In this document: piece by piece, positions 4,152-28,375 of the stretch
Layout of the letters: each line of letters starts with the position of its first letter
Position numbering within the stretch: position 1 is the first letter of the stretch
Assembly: GCF_024757985.1 (NCBI RefSeq)
Contig: NZ_CP103289.1
Coordinates: forward strand, 2,914,001 to 2,978,000
DNA length: 64,000 bases
DNA from: Cellulomonas sp. NS3
GTDB taxonomy: Bacteria; Actinomycetota; Actinomycetes; Actinomycetales; Cellulomonadaceae
Reading direction: 5' to 3'
Program-made: the position numbers and the translations under genes
Notes under the pieces: model-generated
What the model was told of the DNA's origin: nothing
Seen by the model: only the letters and a program-made list of their open reading frames with translations
The model's database searches: none

Positions 4152-6470
4152 TCAGCCGACCGGCGCGGCCTCCGGGGAGCGCTCGGCGACGGCGGGCGAC
4201 CGGTCGAGGCGCCCGAGGGGGCTCGGCCACCACGTGCGCCGGCCGAGGTCGTGCACGAGCGCCGGGACGAGCAGGCTCCGCACGACGAGCGTGTCGAGCA
4301 GCACACCGAACGCGACGAGGAACGCGAGCTGCGCGAGGAACAGCAGCGGGATGACGCCGAGCGCGCTGAAGGTCGCCGCGAGCACGATGCCCGCGGAGGT
4401 GATGACGCCACCGGTGACGGCGAGCCCGCGTAGCACGCCCTCGCGCGTCCCGACCTGCAGGGCCTCCTCGCGCACCCGCGTCATCAGGAAGATCGAGTAG
4501 TCGACCCCCAGCGCGACGAGGAACGTGAACGCGTAGAGCGGCACCGCGGGGTCGGCGCCCGGGTAGTCGAGCACGTGGTTGAACACGATCGCCCCGACCC
4601 CGAGCGCCGCGCCGAACGACAGCACGTTCGCGAGCACGAGCAGCACCGCGGCGACGACCGAGCGCAGCAGCAGCATGAGGATGAGCAGGATCACGACCAG
4701 CACGACCGGGACGATCACCCGCAGGTCCCGCGCCCCGGCGACCTGGGTGTCGAGCGTCTGGGCCGCGGCGCCACCGACGAGCGCGTCGGGCGACACGTCC
4801 GCGAGCGCGGCGCGCAGGTCCTCGACGGTGCCCACGGCGGCCTGCGTGTCGGCCGCCTCCTGCGTCGCGACGTCGACCCGGACGCGGCCGTCGACGACGA
4901 CCGGGGGTGCGGGCTCGGCGGCCGGACCGCCGACGCCGCCGGGCGCCCCGCTGCTCTCGCCCGTGTACACCGTGACCGCGTCGACGCCGTCGAGGCCCTC
5001 GGCCGTCTCCACGACGGCGTCGAGGTCCTGCTCGGGTGCCACGACGAGGATCGGCTGGGTCGCGCCGGCCGGGAAGTGCTCGGAGAGCACCTCCTCGCCG
5101 GCGACCGCGTCGACCTCGACGAGGAACACGTCGGACTGGTTGGTGCCGCCGGCCTTGAGGGTCGGCAGGAACGCCGCTCCCGCGACGAGGAGCAGCACCG
5201 TGACGATCCAGACCGGGCGTGCGTGGCGGCCGACGAACCGGGCGACCCCGCCCCACAGACCGGTGAGCACCTCGGCGGTCGGCCGGCGGTGGCCCGGGCC
5301 GTCGTGCTCGGCTCCCGCGACGACCTGCGGCCGGCTGGGCCAGAACAGGGCGCGCGAGCGCGACCCGAACACGAGGAGCAGCGCCGGCAAGAGGGTGAGC
5401 GACGCGAGGAACGCCGACGCGATGCCGATCGCGGCGACGGGGCCGAGGCTCGAGTTGGACGTCAGGTCGGAGAGCAGCAGGCACAGCAGCCCGGCGATCA
5501 CGGTGCCCGCGCTGGCGGCGATGGGCTCGATCGACGCCCGCACCGCGCGTCGCATCGCGGTGAACGGGCTCTGCACGGCGCGCAGCTCCTCGCGGTAGCG
5601 CGCGACGAGGAGCAGCGCGTAGTCCACCGCGGCGCCGACGACGAGGATCGAGAGGATGCCCTGGGACTGCCCGTTGAGCGTGAGCACGTCGTTCGCCGCG
5701 AGCTGGTACACGACGAGCGCGGCCGCGCACAGCGCGAACACCGCGGAGAAGATGACGACGAACGGCAGGAACGGTGACCGGTAGACGATCACGAGGATGA
5801 GCAGGACCGCACCGAGCGCGACGAGCAGCAGCACGCCGTCGATGCCGCCGAACGCGTTGGACAGGTCGGCGACGAAGCCGCCCGGGCCGGTCACCCAGGC
5901 CTGGAGCCCGAGCTCCCCGGCGTCGTCCGCGCTCGCCCCGAGGTCGGCCTCGAGCGCGTCGCGCAGCGCCCGGACCGACGCGCCGGTGACGCTCTCGTCG
6001 TCCGCGAGGCGCCCCTCGGCGGCGTCGCCGTCGAGGGACAGCGGGACGAGCACCGCCTCGCCGTCCTCGGACGGGACGGCGACGGCCGGGCCGGTGAGCA
6101 CGTCCTCGAGCGTCGTGGGGTCGCCGGCGGCCGCGTCGGCGCCCGGGATCTCGACGTCCGCGACCGTCCGGGCGAACTCCTGCACGGCGGTGGTCTGCTC
6201 GGGTGACAGGGCTCCCCCGCCCTGCGCCTCGAGCACGACCAGCACGGGTAGGGTCTCCGAGTCGACGAAGGCGCGTCCCGCCTCGGCCGCGCGCGTGGAC
6301 TGCGCGGACGAGGGCAGGAACGCGGCCGAGTCGTTGGTCTGGACCTGCGAGAGCTTGCCCTGCGCCATCCCCCCGAACGCCCCGACGGCGAGCCAGACGG
6401 CGAGGACGGCGACGAGGGCCAGCGCGCGCAGAGCGGCCCGACCAGATTTACTCAGCATGCTGAGTATCAT
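4152..6470 (-). CDS. MMPL/RND family transporter
   Basis: About 772 residues with MmpL/YdfJ architecture. There is one N-terminal membrane helix (ALALVAVLAVWLAVGAFGG) and a large extracytoplasmic loop. A bundle of helices containing VLLLVALGAVLLILVIVYRS and VGAAVDYALLLVARYREE follows, then a repeat of the same plan ending in VALGVDYSIFLMTRVREE. The paired DY motifs in these helices are the proton-relay positions of the family. Substrates of homologues are lipids or hydrophobic drugs. The start is uncertain between ATG 6470 and ATG 6458. Neither has a Shine-Dalgarno, and a palindromic operator covers both. Divergent from a MarR regulator, which is the classic layout of a repressor-controlled exporter. 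Confidence 0.9.
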   Translation of the reverse strand: MILSMLSKSGRAALRALALVAVLAVWLAVGAFGGMAQGKLSQVQTNDSAAFLPSSAQSTRAAEAGRAFVDSETLPVLVVLEAQGGGALSPEQTTAVQEFARTVADVEIPGADAAAGDPTTLEDVLTGPAVAVPSEDGEAVLVPLSLDGDAAEGRLADDESVTGASVRALRDALEADLGASADDAGELGLQAWVTGPGGFVADLSNAFGGIDGVLLLVALGAVLLILVIVYRSPFLPFVVIFSAVFALCAAALVVYQLAANDVLTLNGQSQGILSILVVGAAVDYALLLVARYREELRAVQSPFTAMRRAVRASIEPIAASAGTVIAGLLCLLLSDLTSNSSLGPVAAIGIASAFLASLTLLPALLLVFGSRSRALFWPSRPQVVAGAEHDGPGHRRPTAEVLTGLWGGVARFVGRHARPVWIVTVLLLVAGAAFLPTLKAGGTNQSDVFLVEVDAVAGEEVLSEHFPAGATQPILVVAPEQDLDAVVETAEGLDGVDAVTVYTGESSGAPGGVGGPAAEPAPPVVVDGRVRVDVATQEAADTQAAVGTVEDLRAALADVSPDALVGGAAAQTLDTQVAGARDLRVIVPVVLVVILLILMLLLRSVVAAVLLVLANVLSFGAALGVGAIVFNHVLDYPGADPAVPLYAFTFLVALGVDYSIFLMTRVREEALQVGTREGVLRGLAVTGGVITSAGIVLAATFSALGVIPLLFLAQLAFLVAFGVLLDTLVVRSLLVPALVHDLGRRTWWPSPLGRLDRSPAVAERSPEAAPVG
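6449..6466. promoter_or_regulatory. Operator 1 of the MarR/MMPL intergenic region
   Basis: A perfect 18-bp palindrome, TACTCAGCATGCTGAGTA. It overlaps the translation start of the MMPL gene and is 50 bp, about five helical turns, from operator 2. The symmetry, length and position fit a MarR-family dimer site; binding itself is inferred. Confidence 0.85.
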
Positions 6471-6498
6471 GAGGGAACGCTGGGCGCCGCGCAACACG

Positions 6499-6516
6499 TG
6501 CTCAGCATGCTGAGCA
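6499..6516. promoter_or_regulatory. Operator 2 of the MarR/MMPL intergenic region
   Basis: A perfect 18-bp palindrome, TGCTCAGCATGCTGAGCA. It shares the 14-bp core CTCAGCATGCTGAG with operator 1 and differs only in the symmetric second and second-last bases. It lies between the divergent marR and MMPL genes. Confidence 0.85.
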
Positions 6517-6558
6517 TCTGGTGAGCGCCGAGGGCGCCGGACGGGGGACGGGGTGGGC

Positions 6559-7128
6559 GTGACCGACGACGCACGTGCTCCCGGCCCCACCGCCCCCTGG
6601 GCGCGGATGGCCTCGGACGACCCGACCGACTGGCCCGTCGGACGGCTGCTGTCGGCCGCCGCGCGCCGCGTCGAGCGCGAGTGGAACGCCCATCTCGCCG
6701 GGTGGGACCTCAACCACGCGAGCCTGCCGGTGCTCGTGCTCCTCGCGCACGAGCCACGCTCGCAGCGCGAGCTCGCCGACGCGTGCAGCGTGACCGAGCA
6801 GACGATGAGCCGCATCCTCGCCCGCATGGAGCGCACCGGGTACGTGACGCGTGCGCCCCACGCCACCGACCGGCGCAAGGTCGTCCTCGCGATCACCGAC
6901 GCGGGCCGCGAGGTCGCGGTCAAGGCGTCCGACCGGCGGCCCGCCGACGCCATGACCACCCGCGGCCTCACCCCGGAGCAGGTCGAGCAGCTGCGGGCGC
7001 TGCTCGCGGTCGTCGCCCGGCCGGCGACGGCGACGGGCCCGAGCGACGGCGCGCCGGACGGCTCGCCGGTCGACACGGACGACGACGCACCCGGCGACGT
7101 GTGCCCCGCCGAGGAACGCACCGCCTGA
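6559..7128 (+). CDS. MarR family transcriptional regulator
   Basis: A winged-helix regulator of about 189 residues. The recognition region is SQRELADACSVTEQTMSRILARMERTGYVTR, and the wing is APHATDRRKVVLAITDAGREV with the conserved DRR. The start is GTG 6559 or GTG 6553; a G-rich GGGGGACGGGG stretch just upstream serves either. The last 35 residues are low-complexity and acidic. It is divergent from the MMPL exporter with two identical-core palindromes between them, so it very likely represses the exporter and itself, with an unknown small ligand. Confidence 0.92.
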   Translation: MTDDARAPGPTAPWARMASDDPTDWPVGRLLSAAARRVEREWNAHLAGWDLNHASLPVLVLLAHEPRSQRELADACSVTEQTMSRILARMERTGYVTRAPHATDRRKVVLAITDAGREVAVKASDRRPADAMTTRGLTPEQVEQLRALLAVVARPATATGPSDGAPDGSPVDTDDDAPGDVCPAEERTA

Positions 7129-7232
7129 GCCGCCCCGGCCCGGCCGCACCGCCGCGGGGCGCGCCGGGCACGCACCGCCGGTGCGACGACCGTCACGCCG
7201 CCGGCGCGCAGCCCCGGGGTTAGCCTGACGCC

Positions 7233-7961
7233 ATGCAGTTCGTCGAGCTCGACCTGGGTGCCCGCCTCCAGCCCTACCGGCCGACGTGGGACCTCCAGCG
7301 CGAGGTGCACGCGGAGGTCGCCGAGGGGACGCGCGAGGACACCGTGCTCCTGTGCGAGCACGAGGACGTCTACACCGCGGGGCGCCGCACGGCGTCGTGG
7401 GACCGGCCGGTCGACGGCACCCCCGTGGTCGACGTCGACCGCGGCGGCCGCATCACCTGGCACGGGCCCGGCCAGCTCGTCGGCTACCCGATCGTGCGCC
7501 TCGCGCAGCCCATCGACGTCGTGCGCTACGTGCGCGCGCTCGAGGAGACGCTGATCCGCACGTGCGCCGACCTCGGGCTGTCCGCCGTGCGCGTCGAGGG
7601 TCGCAGCGGCGTCTGGTTCGCGGCCGAGCCCGACGGGCCGCGCGGTCCGCTCCGGGAGCGCAAGGTCGCCGCGATCGGCGTCCGCGTCGCGAAGGGCGTC
7701 ACGATGCACGGCTTCGCGCTCAACTGCGAGCCGGACCTCGACGCGTTCGGCCGGATCGTGCCGTGCGGGATCCCCGACGCGGACGTCACGTCCCTGAGCG
7801 CCGAGACGGGCCGACGGGTGAGCATCGCCGAGGTGCTCCCGCTCGTGCGCACGCACCTCGAGGCCGCGCTCGCGCTGGTGCGCCTCGCGACCGCGGAGTC
7901 CCGGGCCGTCGGCGACGCCGCCCCCGTCGGCTCCCCGGACGCGGTGCCCGCGCTGCCCTGA
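7233..7961 (+). CDS. lipB: Octanoyl-[ACP]:protein N-octanoyltransferase
   Basis: LipB moves octanoate from acyl carrier protein to lipoyl domains, the first step of lipoate assembly. It shows the family blocks [40 protein letters not shown] and [13 protein letters not shown]. The last contains the catalytic Cys near residue 177, and AKGVTMHG holds the catalytic Lys. Its 242 residues include about 20 extra at the C-terminus. TAGCCT at 7221-7226 ends 6 nt before the ATG, so the message is probably leaderless. It is paired with lipA 0.7 kb downstream. Confidence 0.97.
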
Positions 7962-8000
7962 CCGCCTTCCCCGCGGCCGGGCTGCGCGGGACGTCGCAGG

Positions 8001-8504
8001 TCAGCGGCGTGCGCCGTGCGGGGCCAGCTCGTCCGCGACGGACGCGGCCCACGCGCGGACCGCGTCGAGATCGCGGAAGTCGCCCTGCTCGGCGTCGATC
8101 AGCGCGACGAGCGCCCGCTCGGCGAGCCCCAGGGTGCGCCGGTCGAGCCGTCCCCCGAAGACCTGAGGCGCGTGCGCCCCGGCCTGCGAGGCGAGCACGC
8201 CCACGTCGTCGGGCACCGTCGGCGGGCTGAGCGGGTTGCCGACGGGCCCGGACCAGAAGAGCCACACGGGTCGCGCCCGCAGCTGCCCGCCCTGGCGCTC
8301 GACCAGCTTCCGCAGACCCGCGCCGAGCCGCCCGGCGTACACGGCGGAGCCCAGCACGACCGCGGCGTACGGCTCGACCGTGCCCACGTCCTCGGGCTCG
8401 AGCTCGTCGACGTCGTGCCCCGCGGACCGCAGCACGTCGGCCACGACCGTCCCGATCTCCCGCGTCGCGCCGTGGCGCGAGGCCACCGTCACCAGGATGC
8501 GCAT
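8001..8504 (-). CDS. Flavodoxin domain-containing protein (HemG-like)
   Basis: A 167-residue flavodoxin fold. The FMN phosphate loop is in MRILVTVASRHGATREIGTVVADVL, where VASRHGATREI aligns with TxTGNT-type loops. Later segments are VVLGSAVYAGRLGAGLRKLVER and WLFWSGPVGNPL. The spacing resembles menaquinone-dependent protoporphyrinogen oxidase HemG and related actinobacterial flavodoxins, but the redox partner is unknown. A good Shine-Dalgarno (GAGGGGG) precedes the ATG. It is inserted antisense between lipB and lipA. Confidence 0.85.
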   Translation of the reverse strand: MRILVTVASRHGATREIGTVVADVLRSAGHDVDELEPEDVGTVEPYAAVVLGSAVYAGRLGAGLRKLVERQGGQLRARPVWLFWSGPVGNPLSPPTVPDDVGVLASQAGAHAPQVFGGRLDRRTLGLAERALVALIDAEQGDFRDLDAVRAWAASVADELAPHGARR

Positions 8505-8679
8505 GTCGAACCCCCTCGCCGTCGTGCGGTCACCTTCGTCCCGCTCGTCCCCTCCAGGGTCACCGTCGCGAGGGCCCGCGGCGTGGGTCGGAGGTCCCGT
8601 TATTCCCGCGCTGGCCTGTGATGCGTGCCTCCCGCTGCGCACGGCGAGCGCCCGCGCCTGCTGACGTAGGGTGAGGAAC

Positions 8680-9681
8680 GTGACGATCGCACCCGAGGGC
8701 CGGCGCATGCTCCGCGTCGAGGCACGCAACGCGCAGACGCCGATCGAGAAGAAGCCCGACTGGATCAAGACGCGCGCGACGATGGGCCCGGAGTACAGCG
8801 AGCTCAAGGGGCTCGTGAAGCGCGAGGGCCTGCACACGGTGTGCGAGGAGGCGGGCTGCCCCAACATCTTCGAGTGCTGGGAGGACCGCGAGGCGACGTT
8901 CCTCATCGGCGGCGACCAGTGCACGCGACGCTGCGACTTCTGCCAGATCGACACCGGCAAGCCCGCGGACTTCGACGCCGACGAGCCCCGCCGCGTCGCG
9001 GAGTCCGTCCAGGCGATGGGCCTGAAGTACGCGACCGTGACGGGCGTCGCCCGCGACGACCTGCCCGACGGCGGCGCGTGGCTGTACGCCGAGACGGTCC
9101 GCCGGATCCACGCGCTCAACGCCGGGACCGGCGTCGAGCTGCTGATCCCGGACTTCAACGCCGTGCCCGAGCTGATCGGCGAGGTCTTCTCGTCGCGGCC
9201 CGAGGTGCTCGCGCACAACCTCGAGACCGTGCCGCGCATCTTCAAGGAGATCCGCCCGGGCTTCCGCTACGACCGCTCGCTGTCGGTGCTGACGGCGGCG
9301 CGCGAGGCCGGCCTGGTCACCAAGTCGAACCTCATCCTCGGGATGGGCGAGACGATGGAGGAGGCCGCCGAGGCCCTCCAGGACCTGCACGACGCGGGCT
9401 GCGACCTCATCACGATCACCCAGTACCTGCGCCCCTCGGTCCGCCACCACCCCGTCGCGCGCTGGGTGCGTCCCGAGGAGTTCGTGGCGCTGTCCGACGA
9501 GGCCGAGCGCATCGGCTTCCTCGGCGTCATGGCCGGTCCGCTCGTGCGCTCGTCGTACCGTGCGGGTCGCCTGTGGGGCCAGGCCATGCGCCGTCGCGGC
9601 GAGGAGATCCCGGCCGCGCTCGCGCACCTCGGCGAGGAGCGCTCGTCGCGCCAGGAGGCGTCGAGCCTGCTCGCCCGCTGA
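8680..9681 (+). CDS. lipA: Lipoyl synthase
   Basis: A radical-SAM enzyme that inserts two sulfurs into protein-bound octanoate. It has both cysteine sets: [12 protein letters not shown] (CX4CX5C, auxiliary cluster) and CTRRCDFC (CX3CX2C, radical-SAM cluster). The C-terminal RSSY motif (VRSSYRAG) supplies the serine ligand. I chose GTG 8680 because TAGGGT (8667-8672) lies 7 nt upstream and would overlap the alternative GTG at 8671. It has 333 residues, normal for the family. It works with LipB on the E2 subunits encoded by sucB and partners. Confidence 0.96.
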
Positions 9682-10549: not shown

Positions 10550-11146
10550 GTGCCGACGCCGTACTGGAACCACAACACGCACTACCACCCGCTCGCGCTG
10601 CGGCACGTGCGGCCCGGCACGCGAGCGCTCGACGTGGGCAGCGGCGAGGGGCTGCTGACCCGTCGGGTCGTCGCCGCCGGCGCCGTCGAGGCGACGGGCC
10701 TCGACACCGACCCGGCCGAGACCGCACGGGCGACGCAGGCGTCCAGGGGCGACGAGCGCCTGCGCTACGTCACCGGCGACGTGCTGACCGCGCCCCTCGA
10801 CGAGCACGCCTACGACCTCGTCACCTGCGTCGCGACGCTGCACCACCTCGACCTGGACGCGGGGCTGCGGCGGCTGCGTGCCCTGACGGCGCCGGGCGGG
10901 CACCTCGTCGTCGTCGGCCTCGCCCGCGTCGGCTCCCCCGCCGACCTGGCGCTCTCCGTCGCCGGCGTCCCCGCCGCAGCCGTCGCGCGACGGCTGCGGA
11001 GCGAGTGGGAGCACGGCTCGCCGATCACCGAGCCCAGGACGACCTACGCCGACGTGCGCGACGCCGCCGCCCGGCACCTTCCCGGCGCGCGCTGGCGGCG
11101 GCACCTGTACTGGCGCTACAGCCTCACGTGGCAGGCACCGCGGTGA
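10550..11146 (+). CDS. Class I SAM-dependent methyltransferase
   Basis: A 198-residue Rossmann-fold methyltransferase. Motif I is ALDVGSGEGLLTRRVV, the acidic SAM-ribose residue is in GLDTDP, and the motif IV region is YDLVTCVATLHHLDLDAGLRRL, as in Methyltransf_11/25 members. The N-terminal HNTHYHPL is typical of an actinobacterial subgroup whose substrate is unknown. TACGGT (10537-10542) ends 7 nt before the GTG start, again a leaderless layout. Confidence 0.9.
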   Translation: MPTPYWNHNTHYHPLALRHVRPGTRALDVGSGEGLLTRRVVAAGAVEATGLDTDPAETARATQASRGDERLRYVTGDVLTAPLDEHAYDLVTCVATLHHLDLDAGLRRLRALTAPGGHLVVVGLARVGSPADLALSVAGVPAAAVARRLRSEWEHGSPITEPRTTYADVRDAAARHLPGARWRRHLYWRYSLTWQAPR

Positions 11147-27991: not shown

Positions 27992-28375
27992 TCAGACGTC
28001 GACGCGGTACCCGAGCGTGAGCTCGTCGCCCGCGACCCCGCGGATGCCCCAGCTCGCGGGCGGGCTCTCCAGGACGACGACCTCGAGGTCGTCGGCGTCG
28101 AGCCCGAGCGCGGGCGCCACGTCGTCGAAGAACGCGGCGATCAGCGCGCGTCGGGCGGCGGGGCTGCGCCCGGTGAAGCACACGATCTCGACGACCAGGT
28201 AGGCGGGCGAGCGCGGTGCGACGAGGTCCTCGGCGTCGAGCAGCAGGAACCGGTGGAAGCGCTTGTCCTCGGGCAGCTGCCATGCGCCGACGAGCGCGGC
28301 GTGCACCGCGTCGGACACCTCGCGCCGCCGGGGCGCCCAGACGTCGCGGCGTCCGTAGATCTTGACCTGAGCCAT
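27992..28375 (-). CDS. Tautomerase-family protein lacking Pro-1
   Basis: A 127-residue protein that fits the Tautomerase_2 family: MAQVKIYG at the start, a middle RFLLLDAEDLVAP, then VEIVCFTGRSPAARRALIAAFFDDVAPAL. Tautomerases use an N-terminal proline as catalytic base. Here the residue after Met is Ala and no nearby start would expose a proline, so ordinary tautomerase chemistry is doubtful. Encoded between rnpB and yaaA, divergent from yaaA. Confidence 0.78.
   Translation of the reverse strand: MAQVKIYGRRDVWAPRRREVSDAVHAALVGAWQLPEDKRFHRFLLLDAEDLVAPRSPAYLVVEIVCFTGRSPAARRALIAAFFDDVAPALGLDADDLEVVVLESPPASWGIRGVAGDELTLGYRVDV

Follow-up and report, generated by a model that had tools for sequence, protein, structure and literature searches.

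In the 64,000-nucleotide window of the Cellulomonas sp. NS3 genome analysed here, a gene for an MMPL-family exporter and a gene for a MarR-family regulator lie back to back. The exporter gene occupies positions 4152-6458 of the minus strand when it is read, as an open frame, from an ATG located on the dyad of a palindrome, and its product matches PF03176 (E 3.7e-106). The marR gene lies at 6559-7128 of the plus strand and its product matches PF12802 (E 3e-15); GTG 6559 is its presumed start, chosen instead of GTG 6553 on account of its alignment with the ATG in two relatives (L093 and L076). Within 6559-9681, marR is followed by lipB (PF21948), by a gene on the opposite strand and by a lipoyl synthase gene (Radical SAM, LIAS_N), and this marR-lipB-lipA neighbourhood is seen again, by visible similarity, in several relatives (L018, L075).

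The first-pass annotation described two perfect 18-bp palindromes between the two genes, sharing a common core and spaced by 50 bp, and these are real features of the DNA. Site 1, TACTCAGCATGCTGAGTA, a palindrome and putative operator, is located at 6449-6466 and spans -8 to +10 of the exporter start; site 2, TGCTCAGCATGCTGAGCA, a lineage-specific second putative operator, is located at 6499-6516. Both are perfect over 18 bp. The core CTCAGCATGCTGAG is present in each, and their centres are 50 bp apart. The length of the palindromes was dropped as evidence because such palindromes are common in this window: with a GC content of 74%, it contains six perfect ones of at least 18 bp, sites 1 and 2 included, where 40 simulated sequences gave a mean of 2.25 and a maximum of 8. 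Perfect palindromes longer than sites 1 and 2, and G+C-rich, are found at 10974-10999 (26 bp) and 28075-28094 (20 bp). For the core, first-order expectation is 1e-4 occurrences per 64 kb and 0.0075 in the 4.78-Mb genome. The genome-wide search suggested by the first-pass annotation returned three exact sites, against none for the reversed control. Matches with up to two mismatches were discarded as a possible regulon, with 19 sites versus 42 for the reversed control. No mention of the core was found in the literature searched.

In order to follow site 1 through the family, loci were selected by protein and not by motif. Of 200 family genomes searched by protein, 127 (the genome of the window among them) have a MarR ortholog, and 80 of the other 126 loci were taken (E-value ranks 2-9, even ranks 10-126, and 13 more for genus coverage). 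The MMPL gene is divergent from marR in the window and in all 80 of these loci. An 18-bp match with at most three mismatches lies at the exporter start in 79 of them, and the 80th (L129) has an exact core at the exporter start, beyond the range first scanned; the 14-bp core is exact in 73 of 80 aligned rows (the window and 79 loci). Judged from this comparison, site 1 is old, occupying the same place in all 80 related marR-MMPL loci examined. A further 79 contigs, retrieved by means of the 16-mer itself, were excluded from the conservation counts; 39 of them carry a marR and/or MMPL match and the other 40 carry neither. Outside the family, 35 of 37 order-level matches were read. Ten have no MMPL match, and the site is present within three mismatches in 21 of the other 25. 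The homologous exporter start carries the dyad in 10 of the 21 (ATG in six, GTG in four), in three more an in-frame GTG stands 12 to 14 codons further up in the open frame, and the remaining eight have an ATG at the dyad (five) or no start codon there (three). In three loci of another family (L195, L196, L199) the site reads CTAAGC-AC-GCTTAG and its dyad carries a GTG in the exporter direction, and thus the half-site drifts while a start codon is kept.

The dyad axis of site 1 passes between the A and the T of the ATG at 6458-6456 on the minus strand, which is invariant in the 80 aligned rows (window and 79 loci) and whose A, at 6458, is the predicted start of a leaderless exporter transcript. 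The earlier statement that site 1 includes the possible ATG codons of the exporter holds for this ATG, which lies inside, and fails for ATG 6470-6468, which lies just outside. On the exporter strand the window reads TTGCGC, 17 bp, CATGAT, 7 nt, ATG. The first hexamer (6489-6494) is the predicted -35, and the second (6466-6471), which overlaps site 1 by one base, the predicted -10. The relatives show the same promoter-like pair, consisting of TTGC, 17-18 bp and a -10 element ending 7 nt before the dyad ATG: TTGC, TTGT or GTGC starts at -36 or -37 in 79 of 80 loci, the T at -36 is retained in 79 of 80 rows, and A2 and T6 of the -10 are kept in 74 of 80 loci. The case for this promoter rests on conservation, since 79 of 80 rows lack the T with which the exporter -10 would usually begin, and no sigma-70-type promoter emerged from a simple consensus scan. 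Given that this pair ends 7 nt before the ATG and that there is no evident ribosome-binding site, a leaderless exporter mRNA is probable, with a predicted start at its own start codon.

According to a rival explanation, the sites would still be MarR operators, but the exporter mRNA would carry a leader and be translated from ATG 6470 or another upstream codon, the dyad ATG then encoding an internal methionine. ATG 6470 is in frame in the window, and 49 of the 80 loci, the window left out, have some in-frame start codon (ATG, GTG or TTG) in the 30 nt before the dyad ATG. However, the equivalent of ATG 6470 is an ATG in only 30 of the same 80 loci, which disfavours it as the exporter start; a 4-mer resembling a ribosome-binding site stands before the dyad ATG in 7 of the 80 (window again left out); the -35/-10 pair points to the dyad ATG; and in other families the dyad codon is GTG in four of the ten clean cases and is still a start codon. 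We regard an upstream start as quite improbable.

Towards marR, a predicted -10 TATCAT (6465-6470, plus strand) overlaps the exporter -10 and would direct a start at about 6477; no -35 was recognised for it. At this block the pattern TANNNT is found in the marR direction in 56 of 80 loci, against a background of 0.3% per position, so that in these 56 loci the -10 elements overlap on both strands by a loose consensus, the exporter hexamer being without its first T. The predicted starts, 6458 or 6459 for the exporter and 6477 or 6478 for marR, are 18-20 bp apart. Since the same A/T block can be read as a -10 towards marR, one bound dimer could block both genes. A start spacing of 18 bp is reported to be the commonest among the bidirectional promoters of Escherichia coli in which the -10 is shared, PacrA/acrR being an example (PMC12825309). 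The present locus resembles PacrA/acrR in its divergent repressor and exporter genes and in its overlapping -10 elements; it differs in having a MarR-type and not a TetR-type regulator, in the probably leaderless exporter mRNA and in that the starts here are predictions.

The codons covered by site 1 allow the demands of the DNA to be distinguished from those of the protein. Codon 2 of the exporter is CTG in 78 of 80 loci and CTT in the other two, even though these genes use CTG about as often as CTC (0.49 versus 0.485). Codon 3 is AGT in 44, AGG in 19 and AGC in 17 of the 80 loci, where AGT represents 1.1% of serine codons and AGG 2.0% of arginine codons. The fixed CTG at codon 2 together with the rare AGT or AGG at codon 3 argue that the DNA site, and not the protein, is constrained; codons 2-3 are, on this codon evidence, clearly dictated by the site, and the codon p-values overstate the case because the species are related. 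The earlier proposal that the operator is also coding or leader sequence is thus supported in silico for site 1 as start and coding sequence, by the 80 loci and by the codon bias. The conserved first residues of the exporter should consequently be taken with caution, as something other than protein conservation: a putative repressor site would here fix the start codon and rare codons of the very gene under its control. MarR operators are typically described as palindromes of 16-20 bp over a -10 or -35 element (PMC7432914, PMC5401885). Site 1, an 18-bp palindrome over the core promoter from which steric block of RNA polymerase would be expected, is like them; unlike them, it has its dyad axis inside the start codon and fixes the first codons.

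The link between the site and the regulator was examined by searching the pattern TNCTCAGCATGCTGAGNA in 121 family genomes. It occurs at 75 sites in 58 genomes, with none for the reversed control, and genomes with marR contain it in 57 of 70 cases, those without marR in 1 of 51 (Fisher p 1.4e-20, a value that ignores relatedness). This co-occurrence supports in silico the first-pass proposal that the adjacent MarR protein has its operators at these sites. The exact 18-mer pattern is absent from 13 of the 70 marR genomes, several of which have variants. The single genome with the pattern and without a marR ortholog at the threshold used (G017) has it at 1555-1572 of L278, perhaps by chance or as a remnant.

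Fifty-nine of the 75 pattern sites lie at marR-MMPL and 16 elsewhere, the one in L278 among them. Six of the latter are upstream of a phytoene synthase gene (PF00494 in 6/6), and four are upstream of a gene for an idi-like NUDIX protein, which we take from its signature to be isopentenyl diphosphate isomerase; in L266 the NUDIX gene is followed by a polyprenyl synthase gene. Four more precede a gene for a TspO-like membrane protein, a name that is weak (23.7-23.8 bits against a cut-off of 24 in one protein, the other three having no Pfam family), and one is at an alpha/beta hydrolase gene. The TspO-like gene with the pattern near its start was seen in four genomes of three genera (L083 5120-5974, L270, L277 and L279).

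Furthermore, both in this genome and in all three congeners searched, a polyprenyl synthase gene has at it a variant with one mismatch, CTCAGTATGCTGAG, expected 0.003 times per genome, the identity of the gene being given by Pfam in three genomes and by visible similarity in the fourth (G038). In this genome that gene is followed by genes for a phytoene synthase, an amine-oxidase-type (crtI-like) protein and a UbiA prenyltransferase. Searches of the three congeners with at most one mismatch gave 4, 2 and 2 sites versus 4, 0 and 1 for the reversed control, and for this reason use was restricted to the identical variant at the polyprenyl synthase gene. At the crtE site of G038, the frame from the dyad ATG closes after six codons, and thus the dyad ATG at crtE need not be a start. 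With predicted sites at crtE, crtB and idi-like genes, the whole looks like a carotenoid/isoprenoid regulon, that is, a pigment-pathway switch.

An MMPL exporter with a divergent marR gene is a common efflux arrangement. The regulator might then be an ordinary drug-responsive MarR protein sensing substrates of the exporter, with the crt sites as a secondary matter, and it is indeed the exporter site that is retained in all 80 loci. This explanation is rather unlikely in our judgement, given that idi-like or phytoene synthase genes account for 10 of the 16 exact sites not located at marR, and that the crtE site is present in 4/4 genomes of the genus looked at.

The carotenoid/isoprenoid reading has a counterpart in CrtR of Corynebacterium glutamicum and its actinobacterial orthologs. 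These are reported to be encoded by a MarR-family gene divergent to an mmpL or crt gene and to have crt genes in their regulon (PMC5401885, PMC6739363, PMC7432914); in Micrococcus luteus and Pseudarthrobacter chlorophenolicus, mmpL is the only such divergent neighbour, and the orthologs bind the intergenic DNA of their own loci (PMC7432914, PMC5401885). The locus studied here agrees with CrtR in the winged-helix family of the regulator (pfam12802) and in the marR gene divergent to mmpL (one of the mmpL, crtE or idi neighbours expected of the type); putative operator sites lie at crtE, crtB and idi-like genes. In contrast, a strict CTCAGCATGCTGAG palindrome lies here on the exporter start codon, and the predicted transcript start coincides with that codon, whereas the crtE transcript of C. 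glutamicum is reported to start 114 nt (PMC5401885) or 85 nt (PMC6739363) upstream of its start codon. The published CrtR motif, with a central TTAA (PMC7432914, PMC5401885), is absent from window positions 6400-6600 and from all 80 stretches examined. For this reason the system is not filed as a CrtR member, although by analogy it is considered to work like CrtR. The best match to the MarR protein in 35 presumed Corynebacterium genomes is 30% identical, and the three loci read there are other MarR genes. A comparison with solved structures gave 77 MarR-like and other matches (best E 3.8e-08), with no CrtR name among the 60 of 77 listed.

Thus, we consider it likely that the MarR-family repressor binds site 1, as part of a CrtR-like carotenoid/isoprenoid switch that would control the probably leaderless exporter, marR and crt genes. 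In this proposal site 1 would be the operator of the adjacent repressor, which would work like Corynebacterium CrtR. A dimer at site 1 would cover -8 to +10 of an exporter mRNA that probably starts at the A of its own start codon, together with the spacer and the first two bases of the overlapping marR -10, and a single dimer would thereby silence exporter and regulator alike. The repressor would be released by a ligand, for which the analogy with CrtR makes GGPP or another isoprenoid pyrophosphate the most likely candidate, and the exporter, marR and crt genes would then be switched on together. In a bolder form, to which we give about even weight, the palindrome would be at once operator, core of two divergent promoters and start with first codons of a leaderless exporter, this triple use being kept across the bacterial family and dictating the N-terminus despite rare codons, and the exporter would belong to a carotenoid/isoprenoid response. 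The proposal would assign an exact predicted operator to a CrtR-like regulator that is found across a large soil-bacterial family, and would tie an MMPL exporter of unassigned cargo to carotenoid genes.

Site 2 has a much narrower distribution. A second exact core within 130 bp beyond site 1 is found in the window and in one of the 80 relatives (L093, Cellulomonas cellasea NBRC 3753), which is identical to the window at 65 of 68 bp from site 1 through site 2, three positions differing; the next-best candidates among the 80 relatives have four mismatches. The twin design is accordingly, as far as these loci tell, recent and local, and not a property of the system as the first-pass annotation had it. 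Its spacing was also said to be exactly five helical turns, placing two dimers on the same face in order to cooperate. At 10.5 bp per turn, 50 bp corresponds to 4.76 turns, roughly a quarter turn less than five, which leaves same-face cooperation on a weak foundation; as a general feature it was rejected, also on account of the second site in 1/80 relatives. Seen from the exporter, site 2 immediately precedes the predicted -35; seen from marR, it falls in the predicted leader, at about +23 to +40 of the predicted transcript, and in this species and its closest relative it probably tightens repression, mainly of marR.

The two palindromes can also pair mutually, and they might form an RNA hairpin or a DNA cruciform instead of being protein-binding sites. 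The predicted fold of 6440-6530 reaches -43.3 kcal/mol (z -3.9), and a further inverted repeat flanks the pair. Nevertheless, the pair exists in two genomes versus 80 loci for site 1 alone, neither predicted transcript contains both sites, and a search for a terminator found none, which makes such a structure extremely improbable compared with protein binding. The flanking repeat, ACCAGAT (6441-6447) and ATCTGGT (6516-6522), is 7 nt long and overlaps exporter codons. These flanks hint that site 2 originated as an inverted copy of the exporter start; alternatively, it may have arisen as a direct repeat (39 nt, 74%).
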